Part shown: positions 10,777-19,670 of the stretch, piece by piece
Layout of the letters: each line of letters starts with the position of its first letter
Numbering within the stretch: position 1 is the stretch's first letter
From: a virus
DNA: 23,149 bases
Direction: 5' to 3' (one strand)
Virus record (IMG/VR): IMGVR_UViG_3300029448_000152
Location: 9,718 to 32,866 of that record
Notes under the pieces: model-generated
What the model was told of the DNA's origin: nothing
What the model saw: only the letters and a program-made list of their open reading frames with translations
The model's database searches: none
Translations under genes and position numbers: made by a program

Positions 10777-11682
10777 TTACTTCTTTTTCTTAACATCAGC
10801 AATAAACCAATCTTTATATGCATCTCTTTTCTTTGATATGTACTCAAAATACTTATCCACCTTCTCTCTCCAATTTTTATCTAACCAAGGATTTATGATG
10901 CCTGATTCAAAATTAGAAAAACTGTGATTAATAAATTCTTTGATATTGTCTTGATGAGTAAAGAGGTAGTTGTTAATTGTATAAAAAGATCCTTGTTGTA
11001 TATTATTCCATATATCAATAGCTTCTATCTTTTTACCTAACACTGCTGCGTATGCAGCACTTTCACTTATGTGAGTAGTATATACTGTTTTAGCTTTTTG
11101 CATGTAATAATACATGTCAATATTTCTAGGTAGTATGCAATCTTCACCAAAAAAATCTTTTAATTCACCTATAATCTGATGTGTTGTAATAGGGTGTGGT
11201 TTAAAATAAATGTTATTACCGTGTTGTTTTTTAATATGCCTTAATCTATTTAAACAAACATTTGTTTTTATTTTGTTAGATCCAGGTAAAACAACCAAAT
11301 AATCTTTTGGTGGATACTTTTCAAAGTCTTGACTTCTTTCAGTATATTTATTAGCAACATTATTTTGTATGTTGTCTATTAAAAATCCAGCATAATCATG
11401 CTTAGGACACTTTGAACAATTCTTATGCCAAGCATCAGCTAATTGTTCATTTCTTAATTTAAAATTTAAAGGTTGTAGATAAAAATTACCTGCAAACTCT
11501 GTATATCCAATAGTTTTAAAATAAGGCATTTCTTCAGCTAATACATCATAGCTTGATTCTATACCATATTCGCTACACTTTCTAATAACATAACCTTCTA
11601 TGTTTTCTAGTTCGTATAGTCTTTTTTCTTTTTTTAAAGGACCTATTCTATTATCCAGCTCCTTTTTATTAAACATTTCCAT
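10777..11682 (-). CDS. GT-B / capsule-polysaccharide-type glycosyltransferase-like protein
   Basis: A 301-residue cytoplasmic-type protein. The C-terminal half has the order of motifs seen in capsule polysaccharide and CDP-glycerol/Kdo-transferase-like GT-B folds. There is a strand with PGSNK (133-137), then NIYFKPHPI (157-165) matching the common KPHP nucleotide-site motif. TVYTTHISESAAYAAVLGKK (199-218) then corresponds to the conserved segment before the substrate loop that usually reads like D-SS-A-EAL-LGKP. A pair of cysteines (CSKC, 89-92) may bind metal. It lies directly downstream of the Thr-rich repeat gene, so it may decorate that fibre or other virion surface. A sugar-modifying role on DNA or host glycan is an alternative. 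The fold call is moderate and the substrate unknown. Confidence 0.58.
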   Translation of the reverse strand: MEMFNKKELDNRIGPLKKEKRLYELENIEGYVIRKCSEYGIESSYDVLAEEMPYFKTIGYTEFAGNFYLQPLNFKLRNEQLADAWHKNCSKCPKHDYAGFLIDNIQNNVANKYTERSQDFEKYPPKDYLVVLPGSNKIKTNVCLNRLRHIKKQHGNNIYFKPHPITTHQIIGELKDFFGEDCILPRNIDMYYYMQKAKTVYTTHISESAAYAAVLGKKIEAIDIWNNIQQGSFYTINNYLFTHQDNIKEFINHSFSNFESGIINPWLDKNWREKVDKYFEYISKKRDAYKDWFIADVKKKK

Positions 11683-11739: not shown

Positions 11740-13830
11740 CTATGTACCTTGCCTACCACCACTTATGTAAGGATATGTATGTAATAAGCCTTCCATTGCC
11801 TTGTTAGGTAGTTGATACCAATTAGTTATAAACTTAGTACTAGTGCTAGTATTATACGTAGTTGTAGTGTTCGTACTAGTGTTGTACGTGGTTGTTGTTG
11901 ACTTAGTTGTATTATAAGTTGTTATTGTACTTGTACTAGTGTTAAACGCTGTAATAGTTATTGTCTGTGTTATAGTACTAGTGTTAAACGTAGTTGTGTA
12001 AACAGTGGTGGTATCGGTTTGTGTGTTATAAACAGTGGTGGTACTTGTGTTCCATGATGTTTTATACACAGTATTAGTTGTTGTACTAGTGTTAAACGTA
12101 GTCGTAGTTGTTTTACTTGTATTCGTACTAGTATTAAAAGTTGTCGTAAATTCAGTTATCCAAGTAGTTATAGTTATCGTGTTTGTTGATCTACTTGTAT
12201 TCCAGTATGACGTATACTCTGTCGTTGTATCTTTTTGAGTTTCTACAACGGTTGATGTAGCTTTAGACGTAGCCCAAGTCGTAGTTCTAGATGTAATACT
12301 TGATGTTGACACTACAGTTGTTGTGCTAGTGTTATATGTTGTAACAGTGCTAGTGTTAAATGTTGTTGTAGTATTCTTATTAGTATTATACGTTGTAGTA
12401 GTACTTTTACTAGTAACTGTACTTGTATTATAAGCAGTAACAAATGAAGTTATCCATGTTGTTATTGTAATTGTTTGAGTATTTTTACTAGTGTTCCAAT
12501 ATGTTATATATACAGTACTTGTGTCTTTTTGAGTTTCTACAACGGTTGATGTTGACTTACTTGTTGCCCAAGTAGTTGTTCTATTTGTAATTTTACTTGT
12601 TGACCAAGAAGTCGTTCTAGTTGTATTATATACCGTAGTTGTCTGTGTATTAAACGTAGTAGTAGTAGCCTTACTAGTATTAAAAGTCGTAGTAGTTGAC
12701 TTACTTGTTACCGTGCTTGTATTGTACGCTGTTACAAATTCAGTTATCCAAGTTGTAGTTGTGCTTCTACTTTCCGTAGTAGTAGTACTTGTGTTATAAG
12801 TTGTAGTCCTACTAGTAGCCCAAGTAGTAGTAGTACTTTTTGATGTTACTGTACTAGTATTAAATGTTGTGCTAGTAGTATATACTGTACTTGTAGACCT
12901 CTGTTCTACTGTAGTTGTGCTTGTATTATAAGTAGTACTAGTTGTATATATAGTTTGAGTACTCCTACTCTCCGTTGTGTTTTTACTAGTAGACCAACTA
13001 GTAGATCTAGATGTAATAGTACTAGTATTAAACGTGGTACTTGTGGTATAAGTAGTCGTCGTTGACCTTTTCTCTATAGTTGATGTAGAAGTATTAAACG
13101 TGGTACTTGTAGTGTAAGTAGTGGTCGTGCTTCTACTTTCAGTTGTTGATGTACTAGTATTATACGCTGTAGTGGTACCAAATGTGGTGGTCCAACTAGT
13201 TGTATAAACTGTGGATGTTGCGGTTGATGTGTTGTAAACCGTGCTTGTCGTATACACTGTAGTTGTACTTCTTTTTTCTATAGTTGTTGTAGAAGTATTA
13301 TAAGTAGTGGTAGTATTATAAGTAGTAGTAGTATTTCTACTTTCTACTGTGTTTTTACTTGTAGCCCAAGTTGTTGTGGTGCCAAAAGTAGTAGTCCAAC
13401 TAGTAGTGTATGTAGTTGTAGTTGACTTTGACGTATTGAACGTTGTACTAGTTGTATATGTTGTTGTAGTAGTATATACTGTACTTGTACTTTTACTAGT
13501 TGCAAAAGTAGTACTAGTTGATTTACTAGTGTTTGTACTAGTATTATATGCTGTAACAAAATTAGTAATCCAAGTTGTAGTATACGCAGTAGTTGTACTT
13601 TTACTTGTGTTAAATGTAGTTGTTCTAGATGTAGCCCAAGTGGTAGTAGTTGAGTGATTCGTACTTCTACTAGTTGTCCACGTAGTTGTCCTACTAGTAT
13701 TCCAAGTAGTAGTACGTGAAGTGGAACGTAAGTGCGTATTCCTACTAGTAGCCGTATTTTGACTAGCATTAGTTATTCTCTTTGTAAGAGTTGCCCGAGA
13801 TGTCGATGTATTTCTACTAGTATTCGGCAT
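11740..13830 (-). CDS. Giant Thr-rich alternating-repeat protein (fibre candidate) 1
   Basis: A 696-residue protein that is repetitive almost end to end. In the unit I counted, 40 of 98 residues are Thr and 12 Ser. Residues alternate by parity: one parity carries Thr, Tyr/Phe/Trp or Lys/Arg, the other Asn, Ser, Thr, Val or Ile. NTS and NTT (N-x-S/T sequons) recur dozens of times. Two exact-length 98-residue units occur in tandem, and a third begins after them. The only non-repetitive part is the last 30 residues (NWYQLPNKAMEGLLHTYPYI, ending GGRQGT). There is no signal peptide. The alternation implies extended beta structure, probably an elongated homo-oligomeric fibre, though no structure is known to me. 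It is followed by a glycosyltransferase-like gene. Mutational slippage could change its length. Confidence 0.82.
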   Translation of the reverse strand: MPNTSRNTSTSRATLTKRITNASQNTATSRNTHLRSTSRTTTWNTSRTTTWTTSRSTNHSTTTTWATSRTTTFNTSKSTTTAYTTTWITNFVTAYNTSTNTSKSTSTTFATSKSTSTVYTTTTTYTTSTTFNTSKSTTTTYTTSWTTTFGTTTTWATSKNTVESRNTTTTYNTTTTYNTSTTTIEKRSTTTVYTTSTVYNTSTATSTVYTTSWTTTFGTTTAYNTSTSTTESRSTTTTYTTSTTFNTSTSTIEKRSTTTTYTTSTTFNTSTITSRSTSWSTSKNTTESRSTQTIYTTSTTYNTSTTTVEQRSTSTVYTTSTTFNTSTVTSKSTTTTWATSRTTTYNTSTTTTESRSTTTTWITEFVTAYNTSTVTSKSTTTTFNTSKATTTTFNTQTTTVYNTTRTTSWSTSKITNRTTTWATSKSTSTVVETQKDTSTVYITYWNTSKNTQTITITTWITSFVTAYNTSTVTSKSTTTTYNTNKNTTTTFNTSTVTTYNTSTTTVVSTSSITSRTTTWATSKATSTVVETQKDTTTEYTSYWNTSRSTNTITITTWITEFTTTFNTSTNTSKTTTTTFNTSTTTNTVYKTSWNTSTTTVYNTQTDTTTVYTTTFNTSTITQTITITAFNTSTSTITTYNTTKSTTTTYNTSTNTTTTYNTSTSTKFITNWYQLPNKAMEGLLHTYPYISGGRQGT
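12163..12750 (-). repeat. Two tandem 294-bp (98-codon) super-repeats in Thr-rich protein 1
   Basis: Unit 1 spans 12750 to 12457 and unit 2 spans 12456 to 12163; a third unit begins at 12162 and diverges. Each starts with WIT(E/S)F. They align without gaps over 98 codons, for example WATSK at unit position 61, VETQKDT at 71 and TITITT at the end. A stretch of 29 bases is identical between copies (12524-12552 and 12230-12258), whereas elsewhere 12 of the first 21 shared residues use different codons. Confidence 0.85.
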
Positions 13831-13832
13831 AG

Positions 13833-14381
13833 CTACGCGTTTTTAATTGTTGTTTTTGGTACTATTGGAAAATATATTCTACCATTCATATTTATATGAT
13901 CCATATAGTTGTTTTCTAAATCTGTTATATTTTGACCAGTTATTTCAAAATGCCAAAATAAATCAGCGATAATTAAATCGTATTTTTTATTAGGTACGTA
14001 AGTATAAGCATCCGCTTTTATAATATTTATTGGACTAGATAAATAATCAACGTAGTCAATTAACTCTTGATTATTGTCTACAACATCGATAACTTGTACA
14101 AAATCTTTATTATCTTTTATGTATTGAGGTAGTGTACCTAAACCTAAACCCAATACTAAAACATTTGGATAATTAGGTATACCTTCAAATAATCTAAAGT
14201 GCTCTCTTGATGTAGGTACTTCACTATTACCTTCTTCACCTTGACCCATAAAAGCTTTACCATAATGCTCTTTGTTTTCTATGGTATTACCTTCGGTAAA
14301 TGTCAAAGTAGACACACCATCAACTTTTGCAACTGAAAAGCTAGTTCCTGTATATTCTGATATTAATTCTTCGTTTACCAT
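13833..14381 (-). CDS. SAM-dependent methyltransferase / spermidine-synthase-like protein
   Basis: A class I Rossmann-fold protein of 182 residues if started at ATG 14381 (MVNEELISEY). An ATG at 14420 would give 195 residues but overlap the upstream gene, so the shorter start, 13 bases after that stop, is preferred. Motif I is VLVLGLGLGTLP (74-85), the acidic ribose-binding strand is VIDVVDNN (97-104), the next strand ends in KADAY (D124), and motif IV is YDLIIADLFW (134-143). This order and the YD-II-D motif resemble spermidine synthase-like proteins. The family's usual N-terminal beta domain is reduced (about 70 residues). It lies between the two Thr-rich repeat genes, so it may modify them. 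Aminopropyl transfer versus methylation cannot be told from sequence. Confidence 0.72.
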   Translation of the reverse strand: MVNEELISEYTGTSFSVAKVDGVSTLTFTEGNTIENKEHYGKAFMGQGEEGNSEVPTSREHFRLFEGIPNYPNVLVLGLGLGTLPQYIKDNKDFVQVIDVVDNNQELIDYVDYLSSPINIIKADAYTYVPNKKYDLIIADLFWHFEITGQNITDLENNYMDHINMNGRIYFPIVPKTTIKNA

Positions 14382-14394
14382 ATTAATTATTTGT

Positions 14395-16701
14395 TTACCA
14401 TTGACTACAAGTATATACACTTGTTACTACACCACCAGCTCCAACATACACAACTTTATCAGCACTAAATGAAGATGATCCAGATACTGGCCACCATCCA
14501 CTACTTGCATATGATGAACATGATGAATTAGTATATAATGTACTACCTACACCAAAACTAAACCATGACACGTTTGAACCAGCAGCTGTAGCAGTCATTT
14601 CCATACAACCAAATGCTGCTTTTTGTACTGTGCCTGTTGCTCTATAAAATGTAAAACAAGATGTAGTGCTATATGTAGTTGTAGTGTTAAACGTAGTAGT
14701 AGTATTATACTCTGTTTGTATTTGAAAAGCAGTTGTTGTATTAAATACTGTACTTGTACTAGTATTAAATGTTGTTGTTCTACTAGTGTTAAATGTTGTT
14801 GTTCTACTTGTGTTCCAATACGTAGTATAAGTTGTTGTTGTTGATTTTGACGTATTAAATGTTGTTGTTCTAGACGTGTTCCATGTGGTTGTAGTACTTT
14901 TACTAGTTCCTTGACTTGTAGATCTTTTTGTTGTAGTACTAGTATTATAATTTGTTGTCCAAGTAGTAGTTGTATTTCTTGATGTGTTCCAAGTAGTAGT
15001 TGTATTTCTGCTTTCGGTTGTACTTCTACTTTCAGTTGTATTTCTACTAGTGGCCCAAGTAGTAGTTGTTGACCTACTTGTTGTTTTACTAGTTGTTCTA
15101 GACGTTTGTGTCGTGGTACTAGTATTGAAAGTCGTACTTGTTGTATAAGTAGTAGTCGTATTTCTTGATTCACTTGTTGTCTTACTAGTATTGTAATTTG
15201 TAGTAGTTGTATATATAGTCTGTGTACTTCTTGATTCAGTTGTATTTTTACTAGTTGATACAACGGTGCTAGTATTTCTACTTGTAGATTTTGAAGTTGA
15301 TCTAGATGTCTGAGTAGTAGTACTAGTGTTGTATGCGGTAGTTGTACTATATACAGTTGTTGTCGATCTACTTTCAGTTGTGTTTCTACTAGTATTATAC
15401 GTTGTGGTAGTAGTGTATATAGTTTGTGTACTTCTGCTTTCAGTCGTGTTTTTAGATGTAGACCAAGATGTTGTAAATATAGTTATAGTACTAGTATTGA
15501 ATACCGTACTAGTAGTATATGTTGTAGTTGTTGATCTTTTTTCTATAGTATTTTTACTTGTGTTAAAAGTAGTCGTAGTTGTATACGTAGTCGTTGTGTT
15601 TCTACTTTCAGTTGTATTTTTACTTGTCGCCCATGTAGTTGTATAAGCTGTTGTAGTAGATTTACTAGTATTAAAAGTTGTTGTTCTGCTAGTATTGTAA
15701 GCAGTAGTTGTGCTATACACCGTCGTTGTGGACTTAGATGTAGATTTCTTAGTTGTCGTACTTGTATTATATGTTGTTGTATAAGCTGTAGACGTTGATC
15801 TACTCGTTGACCAAGTTGTAGTAGTAGATTTACTAGTTGCCCAGGTTGTAGTTTTTGATGTATTAAAAGTTGTAACAGTACTTGTATTAAAAGTAGTAGT
15901 GTATACAGTATTCGTACTTGTGTTAAAAGTAGTAGTTGTATTCGTACTTGTGTTATATACTGTTATAGTTGTTCTACTAGTTGCTAAACTTGCCTGTGTT
16001 TGATAAACAGTCTCATATATAGTTATTGTATTTTGAGATGTAGATTTCTTAGTTGTTGTACTCGTGTTATACGCAGTAGTATAGGCAGTGGTAGTACTCT
16101 TACTAGTATTATATATAGTAGTAGTTGACTTATTTGTAGACCACGTAGTTTCTTTACTTGTATTAAACGTAGTTACTGTACTAGTATTGAATGTAGTTGT
16201 ATATGTAGTTACAGTACTAGTATTAAATGTTGTGGTCGTGTTTGTGCTAGTATTGTATACAGTTATAGTAGTCCTATCTGTAATCCTACTTGTTTGGAAA
16301 GTAGTTGTATATACAGTTGTGGTATCTTTTGAAGTAGATTTTTTAGTAGTTGTACTAGTATTATACGTAGTAGACCAAGTGGTTGTAGTATTTTTACTTG
16401 TAGACCAATTTGTAGTCGTGTCTTTATTTGTAATTCTAAAGGTTTCCCAAGTTGTTGTTTTACTAGTTGTGTAATATGTAATAGTGATTGTATTCGTGGT
16501 CTTAGAAGTAGCCCACGTAGTTGTATATACTGTAGTAGTATTTTTAGAAGTTTCCCAAGTTGTATCAGTCGACTTGGTAGTATTATATGTAGTAGTAGTC
16601 GCAGTACTCGTGTTAAACGTAGTACTCGTTGACTTACTAGTAGATACAGTAGTATTTTTACTAGTGTTCCATATGTCTAATCTTGACCAAAACCACTTCA
16701 T
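14395..16701 (-). CDS. Giant Thr-rich alternating-repeat protein (fibre candidate) 2, with C-terminal Cys-containing tip
   Basis: A 768-residue paralogue of the protein at 11740-13830. Residues 1-12 are a unique basic/aromatic start (MKWFWSRLDIW). Residues about 12-672 are Thr-rich alternating repeats, including 98-, 100- and 68-residue units. In the first 98-residue unit every residue of one parity is Thr, aromatic or Lys/Arg. The last ~95 residues form a distinct compact domain with four Cys (SCFTFYR, FGCME, SSCSSY, YTCSQW) and VGSTLYTNSSCSS, GWWPVSG, YVGAGGVVTSVYTC. These resemble small C-terminal modules of Bacteroidota phage adhesins, and this could be the receptor-binding tip. No membrane anchor is seen. 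The order fibre shaft, then tip, is inferred. Confidence 0.83.
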   Translation of the reverse strand: MKWFWSRLDIWNTSKNTTVSTSKSTSTTFNTSTATTTTYNTTKSTDTTWETSKNTTTVYTTTWATSKTTNTITITYYTTSKTTTWETFRITNKDTTTNWSTSKNTTTTWSTTYNTSTTTKKSTSKDTTTVYTTTFQTSRITDRTTITVYNTSTNTTTTFNTSTVTTYTTTFNTSTVTTFNTSKETTWSTNKSTTTIYNTSKSTTTAYTTAYNTSTTTKKSTSQNTITIYETVYQTQASLATSRTTITVYNTSTNTTTTFNTSTNTVYTTTFNTSTVTTFNTSKTTTWATSKSTTTTWSTSRSTSTAYTTTYNTSTTTKKSTSKSTTTVYSTTTAYNTSRTTTFNTSKSTTTAYTTTWATSKNTTESRNTTTTYTTTTTFNTSKNTIEKRSTTTTYTTSTVFNTSTITIFTTSWSTSKNTTESRSTQTIYTTTTTYNTSRNTTESRSTTTVYSTTTAYNTSTTTQTSRSTSKSTSRNTSTVVSTSKNTTESRSTQTIYTTTTNYNTSKTTSESRNTTTTYTTSTTFNTSTTTQTSRTTSKTTSRSTTTTWATSRNTTESRSTTESRNTTTTWNTSRNTTTTWTTNYNTSTTTKRSTSQGTSKSTTTTWNTSRTTTFNTSKSTTTTYTTYWNTSRTTTFNTSRTTTFNTSTSTVFNTTTAFQIQTEYNTTTTFNTTTTYSTTSCFTFYRATGTVQKAAFGCMEMTATAAGSNVSWFSFGVGSTLYTNSSCSSYASSGWWPVSGSSSFSADKVVYVGAGGVVTSVYTCSQW
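15034..15441 (-). repeat. Two tandem 204-bp (68-codon) super-repeats in Thr-rich protein 2
   Basis: Unit 1 spans 15441 to 15238 and unit 2 spans 15237 to 15034; both begin ESRSTQTIYTT and share TTTQTSR near unit position 41-47. They are followed by another ESRST at 15033. Length 68 is even, so the alternating residue parity is kept. Confidence 0.8.
15751..16344 (-). repeat. Tandem 294-bp and 300-bp super-repeats in Thr-rich protein 2
   Basis: Unit 1 (98 codons) spans 16344 to 16051 and unit 2 (100 codons) spans 16050 to 15751. Each starts with KKSTS and contains RTTITVYNTSTNTTTTFNTS. The two extra residues of unit 2 lie in QASLATSR where unit 1 has SRITDR. A third KKSTS begins at 15750 and then diverges. 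Confidence 0.83.
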
Positions 16702-17150: not shown

Positions 17151-18869
17151 TTAAGATATTGCAGGGAATTTCTCAATAAGAACCAGATAATCTTCTGTCG
17201 CTGAAGGAGCAGACGCGAAAATTAATGAAACTGCATCATCTGAGTTTCTTTTTATCTCAACCATAACTTGATCATAAGTTGCGCCAGAGCCATTATTACC
17301 ATAATCTAAAACAGTAACACCAACTATTGGCGTGCTAAATGAGTGTGTAATATTAAATGTAGTTGTAGAAGCATCTCCAGATAACTTTTTAGTTAACTTA
17401 TTGGCACTAGCTTCTTTAGCATCTAACTGAGTTTGAATAGCTGAGGTTACACCATCTACATAATTTAATTCAGTAGTTGTGGCTGTAACACCATCCATTA
17501 TATTTAACTCTGAAGCAGTTGCAGTAACACCGTCTAAAATATTTAACTCTGAAGCAGTTGAAGTAACACCATCTAAAATGTTTAATTCAGCAGCTGTACT
17601 AGTTACACCATCAAGGATGTTAAGTTCAGCAGCGGTAGATGTCACACCATCAAGGATGTTAAGTTCAGCAGGAGTTGAGGTTATTGTTTCTGTTGCAGCA
17701 GCAGCAAATAAAGCAACGTGACCAGATAAATTTGGTAATGTTATTGTTTTATCACTACTAGTTGCATCTGCAGCAGTAAGCTTTACTTCATAATCATCAG
17801 CGGTAGTACCCTCAAACTGTATTGTGTTATTCTCTACAACTTGTATTGTTTCGTTCTGTATTGTTTGTGTTCCAGAAACTACTAAGTTACCAGGTATGGT
17901 AATTGTATCACTAGCATCACCAATGCTTGCAGCATTACTTGCAAAACCAGCTCCTAATTTTGTTTTAAAGTTTGCAGCTGAAATATTATCAACAGCTGTA
18001 TCACCAGCTAAAGCAGTTGTACTTGAAGTACCTAATTCTAATAAAGATGTTTTACCATCTAGTAAGTTTATTTCTGTAGCGTTTGATGTAACACCGTCAA
18101 GTATATTAAGCTCTGCTGCAGTAGATGTTACGCCATCTAATATGTTAAGCTCCGCTGCGGTAGAAGTTACACCGTCAAGTATGTTTAATTCCGCGGCAGT
18201 AGAGGTTACTCCGTCTAATATATTAAGTTCAGCCGCTGTTGATGTAACTCCGTCAAGGATGTTTAATTCAGCCGCTGTTGAAGTAACAGAAGTTCCATTA
18301 ATAGCTAAAACGTCAACTTCAGCAGTTCCATCAATATATAAGTTTCTCCATTGTTTTGTACTTGATCCTAAGTCTCTAGCATCATCAGTTCCTGGTATAA
18401 GAGCAGTTCCATTCCATCTTACTTCGCCACCATTAACAGATAGTTTAATCATTCCATCAGTCGCGAAGTCAATCATTTCATGATCACTAGCGTCAACATA
18501 TGCTCTACCGACTTTTAACGCAGTATTATATACACTTGTTATAGTTGTTTGACCTGCAGTAATAGCGACGTCGTTAGCGTTTGCTGTAATACCGTCACCA
18601 CCAACAACATCTAAAGTTGGATTTACTGTGCTTGTGCCGGATTGTGTCATACCGTCTCCAGCGGTTACAGATGTTACAGTACCAGATCCTGATCCAGTAC
18701 CAAGTGTGACCCAATTAGAACCATTATTGAATTTAATGCTTCCTGAGTCGTAAATTATTTGTCCAGCCTCATTGCCAGATATGTCTCCCGTACCTGCTTT
18801 ATGGAGCAGAACGTTTCGGATTTCCCCCTTTTGTTGAAAATCCATGTGATTTAAAATAGGTATTGCCAT
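17151..18869 (-). CDS. Tail fibre protein with TAAELNILDGVTS repeats
   Basis: A 572-residue fibre protein. The start (MAIPILNHMDFQQKGEIRNV) resembles N-termini that attach phage fibres to the tail. Residues 197-274 hold six 13-residue repeats (STAAELNILDGVT), and residues 398-475 hold six more. Between them is IQNETIQVVENNTIQFEG and DKTITLPNLSGHVAL, a block I recall from marine phage fibres. The C-terminal domain (TTFNITHSFSTPIVGVTVLD, ending EDYLVLIEKF) resembles the C-terminal part of the next upstream gene product and may contact the receptor. The repeats probably form a trimeric shaft. The start lies after a hairpin-containing gap. It is not clear whether it or the Thr-rich proteins bind host cells. 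Confidence 0.85.
   Translation of the reverse strand: MAIPILNHMDFQQKGEIRNVLLHKAGTGDISGNEAGQIIYDSGSIKFNNGSNWVTLGTGSGSGTVTSVTAGDGMTQSGTSTVNPTLDVVGGDGITANANDVAITAGQTTITSVYNTALKVGRAYVDASDHEMIDFATDGMIKLSVNGGEVRWNGTALIPGTDDARDLGSSTKQWRNLYIDGTAEVDVLAINGTSVTSTAAELNILDGVTSTAAELNILDGVTSTAAELNILDGVTSTAAELNILDGVTSTAAELNILDGVTSNATEINLLDGKTSLLELGTSSTTALAGDTAVDNISAANFKTKLGAGFASNAASIGDASDTITIPGNLVVSGTQTIQNETIQVVENNTIQFEGTTADDYEVKLTAADATSSDKTITLPNLSGHVALFAAAATETITSTPAELNILDGVTSTAAELNILDGVTSTAAELNILDGVTSTASELNILDGVTATASELNIMDGVTATTTELNYVDGVTSAIQTQLDAKEASANKLTKKLSGDASTTTFNITHSFSTPIVGVTVLDYGNNGSGATYDQVMVEIKRNSDDAVSLIFASAPSATEDYLVLIEKFPAIS
17445..17678 (-). repeat. Six 39-bp in-frame repeats (fibre array B)
   Basis: Six 13-codon units encode variants of STAAELNILDGVT. 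They drift towards the C-terminus: ILDGVTA, then IMDGVTA, then YVDGVTS. There are no spacers, so this is a coding shaft repeat and not CRISPR. Confidence 0.85.
18048..18281 (-). repeat. Six 39-bp in-frame repeats (fibre array A)
   Basis: Five 13-codon units with identical protein sequence (STAAELNILDGVT) are followed by a sixth, degenerate unit (SNATEINLLDGKT). Codons vary between units although the protein is unchanged. Confidence 0.87.
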
Positions 18870-19271: not shown

Positions 19272-19670
19272 TTATTTTTTTTTAAATTTTTCAACACTTC
19301 GTCCTCCGAAATAAGCACCAATTACAGTTATAAGGACGATCTGTAATAAATCTGTCCATTTTTCTTCAACTTCAAATGCTATAGAACCTGAATCTATAAA
19401 TACCATGAGTACGGTACTTACTATTAAAAATATAAGAACAAGCGGTCTAACTGATCTTGTTAACCAGTTGCCGTGTTCTAAATCCGCCTTCCAACGATCA
19501 GTTACGTTTTTTTGCATTTCAGCTTCAGCTTGAATCATGATGTTAGTCATTTCTTTTTCAAACTCTGCTTTCTCGTCTTTTGTTCTTATAAACTTATCAG
19601 CAACACCAGCAAGCTTGTCAATGACTCCACCTCCAGCATTGCCAAATAGCTTTGCTAATAGTTTGCTCAT
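19272..19670 (-). CDS. Holin-like membrane protein (3TM/GTA-type holin pattern)
   Basis: A 132-residue protein. Residues 1-60 are amphipathic and helical (MSKLLAKLFGNAGGGVIDKL, then KDEKAEFEKEM). The block NWLTRSVRPLVLIFLIVSTV leads into a membrane segment at about 75-92, and a second at about 107-122 is followed by GAYFGGRSVEKFKKK. The combination of W-x-x-R-x-x-R-P-x-x before the first membrane helix and Y-F-G-x-R-x-x-E-K after the second is the hallmark of the holin family related to gene-transfer-agent holins (PF11351 by memory). Holins form membrane holes at lysis. No endolysin gene is recognisable nearby. It could also serve as a tail-associated membrane protein. Confidence 0.77.
   Translation of the reverse strand: MSKLLAKLFGNAGGGVIDKLAGVADKFIRTKDEKAEFEKEMTNIMIQAEAEMQKNVTDRWKADLEHGNWLTRSVRPLVLIFLIVSTVLMVFIDSGSIAFEVEEKWTDLLQIVLITVIGAYFGGRSVEKFKKK

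Follow-up and report, generated by a model that had tools for sequence, protein, structure and literature searches.

Codon divergence between two repeat units of an (X-T)n phage gene very probably reflects an old duplication and saturated drift

Introduction

Repeat units that encode much the same residues with different codons raise the question of whether the coding has been shaped to keep the DNA copies apart, or whether the copies are simply old. The case considered here lies in a stretch of 23,149 nucleotides (the window), positions 9718-32866 of a viral record of 36,334 bp, whose terminase shares 63% identity with that of an uncultured Manatee Spring phage and 32-45% with those of Flavobacterium, Cellulophaga and Tenacibaculum phages. 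Two of its genes, TR1 and TR2, encode long Thr-rich proteins with a strict alternation of residues, written (X-T)n, and TR2 contains two 98-codon units, A and B, both in frame with the 696-aa gene. The features concerned are listed below by window position.

10777..11682, minus strand: GT, a 301-aa GT-B glycosyltransferase-like protein (phrog_26179, function: unknown), directly 3' of TR2
11740..13830, minus strand: TR2, a 696-aa putative (X-T)n fibre gene that contains both 98-codon units; its C-terminal tail is short, NWYQLPNKAMEGLLHTYPYISGGRQGT
12163..12456, minus strand: unit B, 98 codons; orthologs in the relatives L082 (89% identical in nucleotides) and L092 (80%)
12230..12258, minus strand: 29-bp identical block, unit B copy, equal to the unit A copy
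12457..12750, minus strand: unit A, 98 codons; orthologs in L082 (91% identical in nucleotides) and L092 (81%)
12524..12552, minus strand: 29-bp identical block, unit A copy, coding TSTVVETQKD; a candidate short conversion tract
12919..12999, minus strand: SWSTSK segment of 27 residues, TR2 copy; 26/27 residues are shared with the TR1 copy, with 15 synonymous differences
13833..14420, minus strand: MT, a methyltransferase-like protein between TR1 and TR2, with weak matches only (phrog_15480, E=6.7e-4)
14395..16701, minus strand: TR1, a 768-aa putative (X-T)n fibre gene; C-terminal domain with a cysteine, without an S74 chaperone domain
15388..15468, minus strand: SWSTSK segment of 27 residues, TR1 copy, counterpart of the TR2 copy

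Elsewhere in the window, the gene at 17151-18869 carries 13-residue STAAELNILDGV repeats arranged as two blocks, and includes a 66-bp stretch that is 86% identical to Prochlorococcus phage P-RSP2. A holin-like gene with three transmembrane segments is found at 19272-19670 (GTA_holin_3TM, E=9.9e-7).

Codon use in units A and B

An earlier note on this DNA had counted 21 of the first 22 residues of the units as the same, 12 of them written with differing codons and including a switch of Ser from TCA to AGT. Recounting gives exactly these figures; the 29-bp identity between 12524-12552 and 12230-12258 holds to the base, and the SWSTSK segments of the two genes are nearly identical in protein, as had been described. 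Over all 98 codons, A and B share 77 residues, with 37 codons identical and 40 changed synonymously, and beyond the 29-bp block the offset of 294 gives no exact run of 12 bp or longer. At the 74 informative positions with the same residue, 34 codons are identical, against 31.8 ± 4.1 expected under a within-gene synonymous shuffle (P=0.34); with the block excluded, the count is 25 of 64 and the expectation 27.6. This agreement with independent draws indicates that the synonymous positions hold no residual memory of the common origin of the units. Codon usage is broadly like that found elsewhere in the phage, apart from an enrichment of AGT for Ser. The codon shuffling between A and B is ordinary saturation under protein-level selection; as the proteins are built from few residue types with several codons each, saturated drift comes to resemble deliberate shuffling.

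The explanation that we consider very probable for this (X-T)n fibre gene is that an old tandem duplication inside it would have yielded units A and B. The protein would since have been held by selection for a two-residue register, with a face of large and charged residues opposed to a face of small ones, while drift would have saturated the third positions as well as the two codon boxes of serine. The codon pattern would then be a product of ordinary molecular evolution, removing the tempting story of a coding scheme directed against recombination. The 29-bp block runs against saturated drift, as an identical run of this length between A and B would be improbable under simple drift (P=0.0026 by codon shuffle); the probability of any 29-mer repeat arising in the TR2 gene is about 0.01-0.02.

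Age of the duplication and selection on the protein

Two near relatives, L082 (TR2 protein 95% identical) and L092 (77%), were used for comparison. Orthologous units across the window, L082 and L092 are 78-91% identical in DNA, whereas the paralogous units A and B inside each of the three genomes are 70-72% identical and equally distant. Since the paralogs are less alike than the orthologs, the duplication predates the split of these three lineages. Between the window and L082, TR2 shows a dS of 0.29 and a dN/dS of 0.096, and the neighbouring genes from GT to TerL show dS values of 0.19-0.34 with dN/dS of 0.07-0.15; nothing distinguishes synonymous evolution in TR2 from that of ordinary genes. 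The low dN/dS, the neighbour-like dS and the effectively random synonymous positions between A and B support the strong protein selection plus drift that the earlier note had put forward, and divergence between the units is largely no greater than the age of an ordinary duplication would give.

Amino acid changes between the window and L082 are concentrated in one part of each unit.

12508..12621, minus strand: unit A codons 44-81, with all 9 amino acid changes of unit A relative to L082
12214..12327, minus strand: unit B codons 44-81, with all 7 amino acid changes of unit B relative to L082

For both units together there are 16 nonsynonymous and 10 synonymous changes inside codons 44-81 and 0 and 24 outside (Fisher P=1.2e-6, an optimistic value as the boundary was picked after viewing the data). 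Synonymous divergence is not elevated in these codons, which makes import from another phage unlikely; the segment may be one that is exposed or diversifying locally.

Register of the (X-T)n proteins

Pooled over 95 sequences, one face of the alternating pattern is 58% T, 19% Y/F/W and 12% K/R, and the opposite face is made up of S, T, N, A, V and I. A two-state register model with a low slip prior recorded 192 slips in 70,874 residues and 605 in 27,616 shuffled ones; because its fit used these very sequences, it is the comparison with shuffled residues that carries weight. In the window the register of TR1 is unbroken over residues 1-750 (750 residues), and TR2 shows no slip past residue 32 (664 residues unbroken). 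Internal indels between orthologs respect the same step, 122 being even in length and 5 odd. An extended beta-strand register would call for just such two-step indels and a two-residue register, and arrays that follow an every-second-residue rule over hundreds of residues would be a clean natural system in which to test the requirements of a continuous beta-register fibre. Recent tandem duplication was considered as the source of the indels and rejected: inserted segments resemble their neighbours no more than chance (mean identity 0.54 vs 0.51), and 0/52 reach at least 95% identity to the neighbouring DNA.

Neither TR1 nor TR2 had a match among 50,697 phage records or in Pfam, PHROGs or NCBIfam, a PDB sequence search with TR2 returned no relative, and tblastn of both against phages gave nothing, in part owing to active low-complexity filtering. 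The fetched regions of five isolate or reference relatives that were checked contain no (X-T)n stretch. The open-licence papers searched gave no description of Thr-rich phage fibres of this kind or of a cassette of fibre and enzyme, and a description elsewhere is possible.

Identity of the TR products

The Peptidase_S74 chaperone domain is typical of tail fibres. Such a domain is located at the C-terminus of TR1 in relatives of the window (L103, 26.4 bits; L111, 24.4 bits; Pfam cut-off 22), and in L085 and L164 the S74 match falls under the cut-off. The C-terminus of TR1 in the window (14398-14781) has no Peptidase_S74 match. TR1 of the window (14395-14690) and of L092 (7040-7346) stops only a few residues from the cysteine found ahead of S74 in relatives such as L085. 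The S74 domain thus seems cleanly absent from these two proteins. Among known proteins, T5 pb1 is a tail fibre or spike with an auto-cleaved chaperone domain of the S74 type (PMC12750041). In comparison with fibres and spikes that carry S74 (PF13884), T5 pb1 and gp085 of Cellulophaga phage phi38:1 among them, the TR proteins share the S74 end in many relatives' TR1 and the form of a long fibre-like protein adjoining structural genes; they differ in that TR1 of the window and L092 ends right before S74 and in that their shaft is one (X-T)n array without interruption.

The S74 ends in relatives and the structural-gene neighbourhood suggest that the TR product is likely a long beta-type tail fibre. 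As the AlphaFold monomer model of the repeats yielded no reliable structure (pLDDT 29.9), the beta fibre is read from the sequence. It is unlikely that the (X-T)n proteins are instead secreted, mucin-like or ice-binding-like products made in infected cells and foreign to the virion. The Thr/Ser-rich composition would suit such proteins; however, in relatives the genes adjoin terminase, portal and other structural genes, and many carry the C-terminal S74 chaperone domain, which tail fibres and spikes are known to have. As a separate observation, an upstream fibre fragment in another genome (L017, 2-616) has a C-terminal domain that appears Hint/intein-like by eye (C...LTTEEHLHVI...THN), with no Pfam match.

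Gene conversion and exact repeats

If ongoing gene conversion homogenised the repeats patchwise, the 29-bp block would be one such patch. The block itself is where this idea is strongest. Besides the improbability of the run by codon shuffle, units A and B of the window both read ACC GTT GTA GAA ACT there, and both units of L082 read GTA TCG ACA. At unit codons 72-73, A equals B within the window and within L082, and L092 keeps two states apart, A reading GAA ACT and B reading TCA ACT. The rare ACC, three codons before, occurs in both units of the window and otherwise just in unit A of L082. Sister lineages that each underwent a tiny conversion, in opposite directions, would fit this pattern, and it is plausible that the block records one conversion, or two, of very short length. 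For the 29-bp identity as such, a single recent tract of very short length, from conversion or template switching, is evenly balanced with chance retention.

The wider family gives a different picture. In a quartet test, a repeat pair was compared in two orthologous genes, and joint changes within a genome (concerted) were counted against crosswise changes (crossed). Over 37 non-redundant ortholog pairs, synonymous sites gave 329 concerted and 371 crossed (P=0.12), and over all pairs 531 and 562; adjacent synonymous site pairs of the same kind were equally frequent, 25 concerted vs 26 crossed. Nonsynonymous sites gave 65 concerted vs 16 crossed, an excess that was set aside because the test selects its windows by within-genome amino-acid identity, which favours this pattern. 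A family-wide signal of gene conversion is not detectable by this test. Nor is concerted evolution of the arrays seen in the window, L082 and L092, where repeats within a genome are not more alike than orthologs and the A-B distance is equal in all three. The locus shares with concerted evolution by gene conversion the one 29-bp tract with its short-conversion-like pattern, but its orthologs are more similar than its paralogs, and concerted sites are not in excess in the quartet test. Ongoing patchwise homogenisation is therefore quite improbable, and of the patches of recent conversion proposed in the earlier note, at most the one short tract at the block is retained, the family-wide part having found no support.

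Selection against recombination offers another account, in which codons were diversified since repeats identical in DNA would undergo deletion or rearrangement. In its favour, exact repeats never exceed 32 bp in the first set of 82 related genes, despite arrays of up to 1850 codons, and short-read assembly would mask only repeats far longer than this. However, exact 12-mers in the two TR genes of the window are commoner than in protein-preserving codon shuffles (ratios 1.46 and 1.57), and over the 82 related genes the ratio has a median of 1.20 for 12-mers (below 1 in 13 genes) and of 1.55 for 18-mers (below 1 in 25). Codons for the same residue lying near one another differ no more than chance at distances 1-30. 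Distant members of the family contain exact repeats of 70-107 bp, which implies that such repeats are tolerated; the diverged (X-T)n fibres L227, L231, L273, L233, L230 and L239, unlike relatives of the window, have them at 74-107 bp. As exact repeats are not depleted in the window or in the 82 related genes, the selection against repeat recombination that had been suggested is left unsupported, and we regard it as very improbable. The mild excess of exact repeats does indicate that some younger similarity is present, which counts against saturated drift as a complete account. Least probable is a constraint at the level of nucleic acid, such as a regulatory element or RNA structure preserving the 29-bp block with no conversion: A and B share no other long identical run, but both units of L082 and L092 show differences inside the block, so the exact bases are not conserved.

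The glycosyltransferase-like gene downstream

The gene directly 3' of TR2 is tied to the TR genes well beyond the window. Among relatives selected by their GT, a TR gene lies upstream in 68 of the 68 with enough sequence, and in loci found by DNA pattern alone a GT homolog follows the TR gene, usually within 200 bp. The pair is present in 40 loci that have no other detected neighbour of the window type, with GT identity as low as 21%, and in every checked relative of one diverged GT (L195), from which that search was started. Of the 33 relatives whose sequence upstream of the GT gene exceeds 5 kb, 25 have the methyltransferase-like gene. There are also GT homologs with no (X-T)n fibre, in Caulobacter and Stenotrophomonas phages and in L302-L304.

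The GT sequence matched no Pfam family. Residues K161-P162-H163-P164 are invariant across 23 homologs, and an SES motif is likewise invariant. The AlphaFold model (pLDDT 69.9) has its best fold match to WbbB, a GT-B protein (Z 9.4 over 181 residues at 4.4 A), followed by KrkA (9.0), KpsC (8.9) and a polysialyltransferase (8.6), all Z values being only slightly above background; the best Foldseek match is a UDP-GlcNAc 2-epimerase (E 2.8e-4). In sialyltransferases the HP motif binds the CMP-sugar donor (PMC2169525), and retaining Kdo transferases have a QxxxD nucleophile motif (PMC12887879). The predicted fold aligns with those of GT38 polysialyltransferase, GT99 WbbB, GT107 KpsC and GT140 KrkA, GT-B enzymes with an HP motif, which is present here within the invariant KPHP. 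Unlike the Kdo transferases (GT99, GT107 and GT140), the enzyme shows no QxxxD among the invariant columns of its homolog alignment.

A sugar-transferring enzyme that acts on the fibre would be the most economical reading of the linkage, the alternative being conserved gene order. It is the linkage that points to the fibre as substrate, and glycosylation of its Thr/Ser-rich surface by the GT-B-like enzyme is a proposition to which we give slightly less than an even chance. More tentative still is the broader proposal that uncultured phages widely carry (X-T)n beta-register tail fibres of up to about 1400 residues with a dedicated glycosyltransferase, forming a self-glycosylated, mucin-like cassette across diverged backgrounds. 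The tight linkage of a predicted glycosyltransferase to fibre genes makes phage fibre glycosylation directly testable.

Two further observations concern the distribution of these genes. A GT-B-like gene lies directly downstream of (X-T)n fibre genes in diverged phages (L183-L297, L301 and L305-L324). The TR1-MT-TR2-GT cassette also occurs in a contig (L181) binned to a Flavobacteriales MAG (TMED123), a weak hint of the host.
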